Shown here: positions 32,196 to 48,904 of the stretch, in pieces | How the letters are laid out: every line of letters begins with the position of its first letter | Numbering within the stretch: position 1 is the first letter of the stretch | DNA from: Paracoccaceae bacterium | GTDB lineage: Bacteria; Pseudomonadota; Alphaproteobacteria; Rhodobacterales; Rhodobacteraceae | Reading direction: 5' to 3' | NCBI GenBank assembly: GCA_030750975.1 | Contig: JASMHC010000014.1 | Coordinates: forward strand, 124,001 to 188,000 | Length of the DNA: 64,000 bases | Translations under genes and position numbers: made by a program | Notes under the pieces: generated by a model | What the model saw: the letters and a program-made list of their open reading frames with translations, nothing else | Told to the model about the DNA's origin: nothing | Databases searched by the model: none

Positions 32196-32408
32196 CGGTC
32201 TGGCTCCTGAAAATTCGTTGCCACATAGGTGGGTTTTTTCGCGCCAAGGGCAAGCCCCAAGTAGCTATGCGATAGTGACCAAAAGCTATGCGTCAGGCGC
32301 ATATCGGCCTTGCCCCTTTCCGGGATTGTGCACCTGCAGCATTTCCTTATTTCTATACCAGACGCCGCCAATGAGAGCGCAAACATTTAACAATCGAAAG
32401 GTAGTCCA

Positions 32409-32627
32409 ATGGCAACCATCACCGATATCCGCACCGACGCAGGCTTTGTTGCCCGTTTCGCAGAAACCCTGAACGCCCTGTCGGCCCGCTATGCCCAGTA
32501 TCGCGTTTACCGCAGAACCCTGAACGAGCTGACAAGCCTGTCTTCGCGCGAACTGGCCGATCTGGGCCTGCACCGCTCGATGCTGCGCAATGTGGCTTAC
32601 GAAGCCGCCTACGGCATCAAAGCCTAA
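32409..32627 (+). CDS. DUF1127 protein, CcaF1-like
   Basis: A 72-residue basic protein whose C-terminal half (about 36-65) is a DUF1127 domain with LTSLSSRELADLGLHRSML. In Rhodobacter sphaeroides a DUF1127 protein encoded directly before CcsR sRNAs (CcaF1) binds RNA and affects sRNA maturation; the same arrangement occurs here, with the first hairpin only seven bases after the stop. The start has AAAGGTAG upstream. RpoH control would be expected from that model, but no convincing heat-shock promoter was found by eye. Confidence 0.88.
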   Translation: MATITDIRTDAGFVARFAETLNALSARYAQYRVYRRTLNELTSLSSRELADLGLHRSMLRNVAYEAAYGIKA

Positions 32628-32633
32628 GTCTTC

Positions 32634-32714
32634 GCCGGGTTGCTACTCCTCCTCCCTATGCAATCCGGCACTTGCGGCAGCCGCCTCCTCCCTGGCTGCC
32701 GCTGAAATACCGCA
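32634..32714 (+). ncRNA. CcsR-like sRNA unit 1 (hairpins 1 and 2)
   Basis: Hairpin 1: a 10-bp stem with one G-U pair, 32634-32643 with 32660-32669, its loop carrying CCTCCTCCC at 32648-32656. Hairpin 2: a perfect 9-bp stem, 32674-32682 with 32694-32702, with CCTCCTCCC at 32684-32692. The exposed CCUCCUCCC resembles an anti-Shine-Dalgarno sequence. Two loops per RNA is the layout reported for CcsR RNAs of Rhodobacter. A motif CCGCAGGTTAC starts after hairpin 2 at 32710. Exact RNA ends are inferred. Confidence 0.8.
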
Positions 32715-32800
32715 GGTTACAGGTCTCCTCCTCCCAATCCTGTAATCCTTCGGCATCGGCGGCGGTGTCTCCTCCTCCCTCACCGCCGCCCGCAAATTCC
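32715..32800 (+). ncRNA. CcsR-like sRNA unit 2 (hairpins 3 and 4)
   Basis: Hairpin 3: 9-bp stem with one G-U pair, 32715-32723 with 32739-32747, CCTCCTCCC at 32727-32735. Hairpin 4: perfect 10-bp GC-rich stem, 32758-32767 with 32781-32790, CCTCCTCCC at 32771-32779. It is followed at 32790-32800 by CCGCAAATTCC, a variant of the motif that closes units 1 and 3, which supports the unit boundaries. Confidence 0.8.
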
Positions 32801-32889
32801 TGTTCAGCCGGGGCGCTCCTCCTCCCTGCCTTGTCTGACAGAAACGGTGACAACGCCTTCTCCTCCCTGGCGGTGTCACCGCAGGTTAC
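32801..32889 (+). ncRNA. CcsR-like sRNA unit 3 (hairpins 5 and 6)
   Basis: Hairpin 5: stem 32805-32814 with 32828-32837, nine of ten positions paired including two G-U, CCTCCTCCC at 32818-32826. Hairpin 6: 12-bp stem with one mismatch, 32846-32857 with 32869-32880, loop motif CTCCTCCC at 32860-32867 with the first C replaced by T. The unit ends in CCGCAGGTTAC (32879-32889), identical to the motif after hairpin 2. Confidence 0.78.
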
Positions 32890-32921
32890 GAACAAGATCG
32901 CGTCAGCAATTGATCTTTCGG

Positions 32922-32961
32922 AAAAACCGGGGCGGCACCTAAAGCAGGGGCCGCCCTTTTT
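32922..32961. terminator. Bidirectional Rho-independent terminator
   Basis: An 11-bp stem with one mismatch (32930-32940 with 32946-32956) and an AAAGC loop is followed on the plus strand by TTTTT (32957-32961). On the minus strand CGG and TTTTT (32922-32926) follow the stem. It closes the DUF1127-sRNA transcript and also the convergent 84-residue gene. Confidence 0.88.
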
Positions 32962-32968
32962 CATGGCC

Positions 32969-33223
32969 TCAATGCACCAGCCGCCGGCGGCCCCGCCGCC
33001 CCGGACTGGCCGGCCAGGAACACGAAACCAGACAATCGCGGAACACCTCGGCCGAACGGGTCCGCGCCCGGTCGGGCAGGTCATCCAGCCCCCGCACCGC
33101 CGCCTCGCGCGCCGATACCCCTTCGGGCAACCCCAACACCCATTGCAGAAACTCCATCCGCGCCGCGGTCTCGCCCAGCTTCGGATCGCGCTGCAGGACC
33201 GCCCAGATTTCTTTCACTTCCAT
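32969..33223 (-). CDS. Small hypothetical protein downstream of a cobalamin riboswitch
   Basis: An 84-residue reading frame, not recognised. It is hydrophilic, has no signal peptide or membrane helix, and ends in a basic PGRRGRRRLVH tail. It has a credible GCGAGGGGC upstream of ATG and is the only frame between the riboswitch and the two-way terminator, which argues that it is real. Its control suggests a role when B12 is scarce, or in B12 or cobalt handling, but that is inference. The alternative is that it is a remnant and the riboswitch is left without a target. Confidence 0.5.
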   Translation of the reverse strand: MEVKEIWAVLQRDPKLGETAARMEFLQWVLGLPEGVSAREAAVRGLDDLPDRARTRSAEVFRDCLVSCSWPASPGRRGRRRLVH

Positions 33224-33323
33224 GACAAAGCCCCTCGCTTTGAACGCGGCGGGTGAACAACGGAAAGCGGATCAGATCTCAGCCCGCGCCCCGTCCCGCC
33301 CACCGCAGGTTGACACAAACCAA

Positions 33324-33515
33324 GGCTGGTTTCCGGGCTTGGGGCGGGCGGTCCAGCGACCCGAAACGACACCTTCCCGACCCGAGGGTCAGTGGCCTTG
33401 GCGTTTCATCCCACCCTCACCGTTGCGGGGGCAGCGCCGGATTCGCACCGGCTTCCCAATTCTCCCTCAAACGAGGGCACCTTGATGCCGGAACTGTGCC
33501 GCAGAAAACCAAGCC
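33324..33515 (-). promoter_or_regulatory. Cobalamin (AdoCbl-type) riboswitch
   Basis: The B12 box is unmistakable on the minus strand at 33422-33452: GCCGGTGCGAATCCGGC followed by GCTGCCCCCGCAAC. Closing helix P1 can form between GGCTTGGTTT (33506-33515) and AAACCAGCC (33324-33332), with GGTGCCC and CGGGAAGGTG elements between. The GC-rich stretch that follows could sequester the ribosome site of the small ORF starting at 33223. It is about 100 bp ahead of that start. Confidence 0.9.
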
Positions 33516-43579: not shown

Positions 43580-43654
43580 GCGGGCGTAGCTCAGGGGTAG
43601 AGCGCAACCTTGCCAAGGTTGATGTCGTGAGTTCGAATCTCATCGCCCGCTCCA
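43580..43654 (+). tRNA. tRNA-Gly (GCC), copy 1
   Basis: A 75-base cloverleaf including an encoded CCA. Acceptor arm GCGGGCG with CGCCCGC, anticodon GCC at 43612-43614 in the loop CTTGCCAAG, and the T-loop GTTCGAATC. The discriminator base is T. Confidence 0.97.
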
Positions 43655-43675: not shown

Positions 43676-43750
43676 GCGGGCGTAGCTCAGGGGTAGAGCG
43701 CAACCTTGCCAAGGTTGATGTCGTGAGTTCGAATCTCATCGCCCGCTCCA
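43676..43750 (+). tRNA. tRNA-Gly (GCC), copy 2
   Basis: Identical in sequence to the first copy, 21 bp further on; anticodon GCC at 43708-43710 and CCA encoded at 43748-43750. It ends one base before the stop codon of the convergent GtrA gene. Confidence 0.97.
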
Positions 43751-48271: not shown

Positions 48272-48664
48272 TTACTCAACCCGCGTCCAGACGCCTCCGT
48301 CACGGCAGACCACCAGCACGCAGCCCTGCACGGTCAGCGTATCTCCGTTCAGTTTCAGCTTGCCGGCATAGGTTTGATCGCGGTCGGGCGAATAGACTTT
48401 GCCGCCCCCGTAAGTCCCGCCATTGCGCGGTTTCATATCCCAGATCATCAGCCGCCCGATATTCGGGCTGGCATATTCATTACCGCTGCTGTCAAAGCTT
48501 TTGATCAATGTGCCGCAAATGCCGCCATCGCAGGCTTCGATCCGGATTTGGCCGGAATTGCCATTGTCATCGGGGATTGTGGCCCAGATACCATAGATCG
48601 GATCGGCCAGCGCCTGACCGGCAACAAGCACCGCCGCAGCGGCGGCCAGAAGTGTCTTTTTCAT
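48272..48664 (-). CDS. DUF2147 exported protein
   Basis: A 130-residue protein with an alanine-rich signal peptide (KKTLLAAAAAVLVAGQALA, cleavage after about residue 21) and a DUF2147 domain: GIWATI at the start, four cysteines in two CxxxxC-like patterns (EACDGGICG, GCVLVVC) and VWTRVE at the end. Function unknown; periplasmic location inferred. It interrupts the his genes on the opposite strand. Confidence 0.85.
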   Translation of the reverse strand: MKKTLLAAAAAVLVAGQALADPIYGIWATIPDDNGNSGQIRIEACDGGICGTLIKSFDSSGNEYASPNIGRLMIWDMKPRNGGTYGGGKVYSPDRDQTYAGKLKLNGDTLTVQGCVLVVCRDGGVWTRVE

Positions 48665-48904
48665 GATTTATCCTCCCGTATTGGGGAAAGTCTTCCCCCA
48701 TTTCGGATTTCGATCAAGGTTGACGCAAGCGTTTCGCGCCTGACTTGACGTAAAGTTTGGGGGGAAATGCTCGGAACCCATCGATGTTGAGGGTGTTTCG
48801 ATGCAATCTGCTTTGCTGAATGGTCTTGAAACATTTTTGGGTCGCGTTGCATTCCGAGCTGGCCCATGCATAAGGGCGGCATGTGACATTGAAAGGGCCG
48901 TGCC

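Follow-up and report, generated by a model that had tools for sequence, protein, structure and literature searches.

A small gene for a DUF1127 protein is followed, in the genome studied here, by a run of stem-loops that present an anti-Shine-Dalgarno sequence, which raises the question of what kind of RNA locus this is, how many RNAs it may give rise to, what switches it on, and which mRNAs its products may act on. We analyzed a window of 64,000 nucleotides, by which we mean the whole stretch of DNA under study, together with the 3.19-Mb genome (22 contigs) that contains it. On the plus strand, the locus consists, in order, of a diverged palindromic box, a promoter core, the DUF1127 gene, six hairpins, and a Rho-independent terminator (Table 1), with a gap of a few nucleotides between the DUF1127 stop codon and the first stem. 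The neighboring gene, on the opposite strand, encodes a P-loop ATPase of the Mrp/NUBPL type. In Rhodobacter sphaeroides, the CIN1 locus is described, in PMC10253847 and PMC8625941, as ccaF1 (RSP_6037), encoding a DUF1127 protein of ∼71 amino acids, followed by the tandem CcsR1-4 RNAs, each with two CCUCCUCCC loops, and a Rho-independent terminator, all on one precursor transcript. Given that a short DUF1127 gene lies directly upstream of the hairpins, on the same strand and with a shared terminator, the window locus is a CIN1 locus, composed of a CcaF1-type DUF1127 gene and CcsR/cuckoo RNAs. A preliminary description of this DNA had read the hairpins as anti-Shine-Dalgarno RNAs of the CcsR/cuckoo type that follow a DUF1127 gene resembling ccaF1, and both parts hold, the gene through its PF06568 match and the hairpins through folding and the arm-swap test described below.

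Table 1. Features of the CIN1 locus, in window coordinates
Feature	Position	Strand	Details
LTTR-type operator (putative), TATGCGTCAGGCGCATATCGGCCTTG	32287..32312	+	Palindrome ATGCG-N5-CGCAT; diverged copy of family box
Conserved core promoter block, ATTGTGCACCTGCAGCATTT, with TTG of -35 and candidate RpoH-like -10, CTTATTTC	32325..32353	+	Consensus ATTGTGCAatcGCAGCATTtgccTAttTTca, 57 named loci
DUF1127 small protein gene, 72 aa, CcaF1-type	32409..32627	+	PF06568, E 3.1e-13; homologues precede the array in almost every relative sampled
Hairpin 1 (proposed unit 1, weak)	32634..32669	+	Core stem -17.1 kcal/mol; anti-Shine-Dalgarno loop CTCCTCCTCCC
Hairpin 2 (proposed unit 1, strong)	32674..32702	+	Core stem -19.8 kcal/mol
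Hairpin 3 (proposed unit 2, weak)	32715..32747	+	Core stem -10.5 kcal/mol
Hairpin 4 (proposed unit 2, strong)	32758..32790	+	Core stem -21.7 kcal/mol; compensatory changes versus same-genus copy
Hairpin 5 (proposed unit 3, weak)	32804..32838	+	Core stem -12.0 kcal/mol
Hairpin 6 (proposed unit 3, strong)	32845..32881	+	Core stem -20.5 kcal/mol; loop TCTCCTCCC, one change
Rho-independent terminator closing the operon	32921..32961	+	G+C-rich stem, then TTTTT; -23.5 kcal/mol

The loop motif CTCCTCCC occurs at 32649, 32685, 32728, 32772, 32819, and 32860, all on one strand and inside 220 bases, and nowhere else on either strand of the window; the whole genome holds 19 such sites, of which only the six of the array cluster. 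Folding of positions 32600 to 33000 gave -173.1 kcal/mol versus -134.1 kcal/mol for shuffled sequences (z score, -6.4), and none of 100 shuffles folded as well. Burial of the motifs, which the preliminary description had named as one outcome that would speak against it, is not what this fold shows, since all six lie unpaired in hairpin loops. In an arm-swap test, for which the fold was not reused to choose the stems, the 5′ arms were exchanged among the six sites; the mean energy rose from -17.6 to -8.0 kcal/mol (a mean cost of 9.6), and each native hairpin was better than all of its swaps, even though the stem arms of the window are only 23 to 27% identical, which is the chance level. The same test was passed by 324 of 357 hairpins in the arrays of relatives, with up to three swaps each. 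Stem 4 reads GCGGCGG/CCGCCGC in the window and GCAGCAG/CTGCTGC in a same-genus relative, a compensatory change, and together with the arm-swap result this shows that selection acts on fold and loop while the stem sequence is free to vary. The six successive stem-loops with the motif in the loop, the single change in the sixth loop, and stems that differ but stay paired, all noted in the preliminary description, are thus confirmed; of its suggestion of old duplications with compensatory change, the compensatory part is seen against the same-genus copy, but arms at chance identity cannot show the duplications. A chance or low-complexity origin from C-rich repeats without function can be dismissed, because, although replication slippage can create C-rich tandem motifs and some relatives (e.g., G176) do carry recent tandem copies, the arm-swap test already refutes it, the diverged arms pairing site specifically, and neither the family-wide conservation nor the fold z score of -6.4 fits it.

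In a cuckoo RNA, between two and four neighboring hairpins carry CCUCCUCCC in their loops on stems of variable sequence, and the array has these features, with the grouping into pairs inferred from hairpin strength and spacing. According to PMC3927594, hairpins of this kind in Rhizobiales are represented by SmelA075/SmelA099 and were linked to a two-loop RNA of R. sphaeroides, and the same loop family is named alpha-r14 or cuckoo RNAs in PMC10746234. The preliminary description had proposed a covariance search with the CcsR/cuckoo models; both CcsR1 and ar14 do match the window, all below the gathering scores. The Rfam model CcsR1 (RF02791) matches all three hairpin pairs, at 32628-32707 (26.8 bits), 32723-32794 (23.9 bits), and 32802-32887 (28.5 bits, against a gathering score of 65.3), and ar14 (RF02344) reaches 51.5 bits across hairpins 1 to 3 against 58.8. 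Given that the arrays of R. capsulatus, R. aestuarii, and Ruegeria pomeroyi also stay below the RF02791 gathering score (best, 62.7 bits), this reflects narrow models rather than doubtful membership. The window locus thus resembles CIN1 of R. sphaeroides in its DUF1127 gene, its tandem CCUCCUCCC hairpin RNAs, its terminator, and the recognition of all three pairs by the CcsR1 model, but it differs in having six loops instead of eight, stems of unrelated sequence, and CcsR1 scores of only 24 to 28 bits.

The array had been described as expanded, a view that the family does not bear out. At least two such loops at a spacing of 20 to 50 nucleotides were found in 211 of 247 sampled family genomes. 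We further fetched 80 named loci with the DUF1127 protein profile alone, the named matches belonging to Rhodobacteraceae-type genera except for one record, and in 75 of these 80 Rhodobacterales loci the array lies directly downstream of the gene (4 to 24 hairpins; median, 6). Together with the family relatives, these matches indicate that the window belongs to a Rhodobacterales genome. Examples are R. capsulatus (8 hairpins), Ruegeria pomeroyi (6), and Primorskyibacter flagellatus (24), and relatives beyond the named loci range from 2 to 25. Six hairpins are thus the family median, CcsR1-4 of R. sphaeroides implies eight, and relatives have up to 24 or 25; the window array is a typical, average-sized member of a known family. 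The two largest arrays, L083 (G176; 25 hairpins) and L182 (P. flagellatus; 24 hairpins), contain near-identical tandem copies of a multihairpin unit, suggesting that they were amplified recently. Other individual loci depart from the common layout: a single genome (G014) holds two CIN1 loci (L021 and L037), and in another (L066, from G139) a three-hairpin array precedes the best DUF1127 match instead of following it. One record bears the name Nocardioides marinus (L177), yet its CIN1 locus, promoter box included, is typical of Rhodobacterales, pointing to a mislabelled or contaminated assembly.

The exposed CCUCCUCCC loop would pair with G-rich Shine-Dalgarno sequences and thereby block translation or destabilize the mRNA, and GGGAGGA is such a sequence, complementary to UCCUCCC in the loop. 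GGGAGGA placed 3 to 10 nucleotides before an ATG occurs at 37 places in the genome, versus 5 for the reversed pattern. Among the genes at annotated sites, 14 of 30 encode ABC or TRAP transporter components (11 binding proteins and 3 membrane proteins), versus 1 of 20 for the single control Shine-Dalgarno sequence compared, AAAGGAG (Fisher P, ∼0.001; annotated sites, 30 of 37 and 20 of 42, respectively). A SoxA-type cytochrome, two CoA-transferase subunits, and an aldehyde dehydrogenase are also encoded behind GGGAGGA. These matching sites point to ABC and TRAP uptake systems as the main predicted targets, as in rhizobia, where ABC transporters are the predicted targets of NfeR1 (PMC10746234), although a bias of transporter genes toward G-rich Shine-Dalgarno sites may have other causes. 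The idea that each unit serves different G-rich targets finds no support, as the units vary in their stems but hardly in their loops. Within the window, GGGAGGA also precedes a DUF2147 gene (48662-48677, minus strand), a candidate target of the array.

Instead of acting on such mRNAs, the hairpins could serve chiefly in cis: as a 3′ untranslated region that protects the DUF1127 mRNA or binds protein, or as a sponge that takes up the DUF1127 protein. The array is nearly always codirectional with and immediately downstream of the DUF1127 gene, and CcaF1 is described as an RNA-binding protein that acts on the RNAs of its own operon (PMC10253847), as such a role would have it. We nevertheless regard it as improbable, since it leaves unexplained both the strict conservation of the anti-Shine-Dalgarno loop amid drifting stems and the published activity of CcsR and NfeR1 in trans, together with the fact that such RNAs stand alone in Rhizobiales.

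How the array divides into RNAs can be judged from the family as a whole. In 51 arrays, the linkers had medians of 6 nucleotides from a weak to a strong hairpin and 29.5 nucleotides from a strong to a weak one (P = 5e-27), the long linkers being somewhat inflated by degenerate hairpins that were missed. Hairpin strength alternates along the arrays, with 231 of 281 interior hairpins being local energy extrema when 180 are expected and 2,000 permutations never exceeded 208; the number of hairpins is even in 35 of the 51 arrays, and the last hairpin is stronger than its predecessor in 43. This family-wide alternation and the linker pattern favor three two-loop RNAs as the most likely content of the window array, as had been proposed. 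In the window itself, the energies (-17, -20, -10, -22, -12, and -20 kcal/mol) follow the same course, with a small contrast between hairpins 1 and 2, and the linkers between the six core stems measure 4, 12, 10, 13, and 6 nucleotides; the first three agree with the earlier estimate, which had put the last two at ∼12 and 4. The motif CCGCA..TT.C, which had been read as a mark of the units, is indeed present after hairpins 2, 4, and 6, but it is local to the window: in the arrays of 50 relatives (19,440 nucleotides) it matched once against 0.55 matches expected, and we rejected it as a general unit boundary. Nor were the strong-to-weak linkers A+T rich, as would be typical of RNase E sites (A+T, 0.44 versus 0.52). 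Two three-loop RNAs of the NfeR1/alpha-r14 type (hairpins 1 to 3 and 4 to 6), or one six-loop RNA, appear rather unlikely in comparison. Such a division would fit the score of the three-loop ar14 model across hairpins 1 to 3, which is above any CcsR1 match, and the triplets present in some relatives, such as the 25-hairpin array built of weak-medium-strong triplets, but strong hairpins at positions 2, 4, and 6 and longer linkers after hairpins 2 and 4 than elsewhere in the array argue against it.

In R. sphaeroides, the precursor is cleaved by RNase E with the help of the DUF1127 protein. By analogy, one transcript would run from about 32326 through the DUF1127 gene and the six hairpins to 32961, and RNase E, helped by the DUF1127 protein, would cut it into the mRNA and probably three CcsR/cuckoo RNAs, each made up of a weaker first hairpin and a strong, GC-rich second one. 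We have good confidence in this overall reading of the locus as a CIN1 operon extending from that promoter to the terminator, processed to probably three two-loop RNAs, and directed at transporter mRNAs. The common weak-strong grammar, in arrays of up to ∼25 hairpins, predicts processed units and can be tested.

Upstream of the gene, a motif search without a prior model recovered the box tATGCA.TTgCTGCAT.GCaGCATTG in ∼44 of 47 upstream regions, mostly 100 to 165 nucleotides before the start codon. Each of the 75 named array loci has it within five mismatches, and outside these promoters the sequences examined contain few near-matches; a degenerate pattern run over the window's own genome gave mostly chance matches. 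Behind the box stands ATTGTGCAnncGCAGCAT, followed by a CCTATnTT-like -10 element. Part of the box, TGCA-N6-GCAT, occurs in 41 of 47 and 73 of 80 promoters but only 27 times in 846 kb of background, and it equals the LsrB site that was defined in the NfeR1 promoter by gel shift and mutation, LsrB being the activator of this cuckoo RNA in Sinorhizobium meliloti (PMC10746234). Overlapping this site, TGCATGGCAGCATTG matches the 15-mer VtlR box CAATGCAGCCATGCA (PMC12595884) at 14 of 15 positions on the reverse strand. The window copy occupies the place that the intact box has in a same-genus relative and differs from the family box, TATGCAnTTnCTGCATrGCrGCATTG, at 7 of 24 defined positions; it reads TATGCG TCAGG CGCATA, with TGCG-N6-GCAT instead of TGCA-N6-GCAT, so that both arms have changed and the palindrome is kept. 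Two stand-alone two-loop RNAs (L231 and L232, from G380 and G045) have no recognized box and carry TTGCATCGCACCATTT upstream of a TTGACA-type promoter, a partly similar sequence too weak to count as a counterpart of the box.

A clear LsrB/VtlR homologue is encoded in the same genome. The product of the LysR gene at G000:C1:42881-43849 is similar over its full length to Agrobacterium tumefaciens LsrB (PDB 9hh1, identified as such in PMC11975290), with 253 bits compared with 111 bits for the next chain, and its DNA-binding region is identical to that of LsrB at 49 of 64 positions, versus 29 for the next LysR protein of the genome. It also shares 48 to 50% identity with LysR-type regulators whose genes immediately follow trxB in two other alphaproteobacteria, and 34 of the 36 family genomes sampled encode an LsrB homologue. 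The trxB-lsrB operon described for LsrB, a regulator reported from Rhizobiales only (PMC11975290), is absent from this genome, where trxB lies elsewhere, beside an Lrp-type gene, and the box was not found at the homologue's own gene. The redox cysteine pairs of Agrobacterium LsrB (C144/C273 and C236/C244) are absent in eight Rhodobacterales homologues, which have from none to two cysteines at other places, so the signal sensed may differ. A second candidate, the LysR-type gene divergent from a DUF1127 gene on contig C10 of the genome (L144), was rejected as regulator of the array, as there is no promoter box there and its similarity to LsrB is much lower.

CcsR RNAs are induced by singlet oxygen or heat, and a promoter site for an LsrB/VtlR-type regulator could explain this stress induction. 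The promoter carries what resembles the site of a stress regulator thought to be confined to another order, a probable new link for a locus of this kind. There is an even or slightly better prospect that an LsrB/VtlR-type LysR protein bound at 32287-32312 activates transcription, possibly with an RpoH-type RNA polymerase. Whether such a regulator, nearly universal in the Rhodobacterales family, controls its CIN1 operons, so that a circuit of LysR protein, anti-Shine-Dalgarno RNA, and transporter mRNA would predate the split of the two orders and the window operator would have drifted symmetrically, is an evenly balanced proposition. A tentative alternative is that another regulator binds the box or that RpoHI/RpoHII alone drive the locus. 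An RpoHI/RpoHII promoter has been assigned at the same place in R. sphaeroides (PMC10253847), the core promoter contains a CCTATnTT-like -10, and LsrB has been described as unique to Rhizobiales; the TTG-N17-CTTATTTC arrangement of the window resembles a sigma32-type promoter only loosely, and the family core is compatible with, but no proof of, an RpoHI/RpoHII promoter. A sigma factor, however, leaves unexplained a 26-bp box upstream of the -35 element that is found at 75 of 75 named array loci and contains the published LsrB site, and another regulator has to contend with an LsrB homologue in 34 of 36 genomes whose DNA-binding domain is near identical.

Besides CIN1 of R. sphaeroides, two other systems come close to the locus. 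NfeR1/alpha-r14 of Sinorhizobium and relatives shares the adjacent CCUCCUCCC hairpins, the variable stems, and the predicted ABC transporter targets, and its LsrB site, TGCA-N6-GCAT (PMC10746234), recurs in the promoters of most named relatives of the locus, the window copy being TGCG-N6-GCAT, but it is a three-hairpin sRNA gene of its own with a sigma70 promoter and NtrC repression, while the window has a DUF1127 operon with another promoter core. In the VtlR/LsrB regulon of Brucella and Agrobacterium, a LysR regulator with the box CAATGCAGCCATGCA governs DUF1127 genes as well as sRNAs directed at transporter mRNAs (PMC12595884, PMC7486931), but these are separate units there and one operon here, and the Rhodobacterales regulator lacks the redox cysteine pairs. 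If LsrB/VtlR control of CIN1 is true, the growth of tandem arrays to as many as ∼25 hairpins would amount to dosage control of the circuit.

Two further RNA features were observed in the window, a cobalamin riboswitch (RF00174, 122 bits) at 33307-33499 on the minus strand, beside an 84-amino-acid frame at 32969-33223 on the same strand, and two tandem tRNA genes at 43580-43651 and 43676-43747 on the plus strand, with identical Rfam scores.
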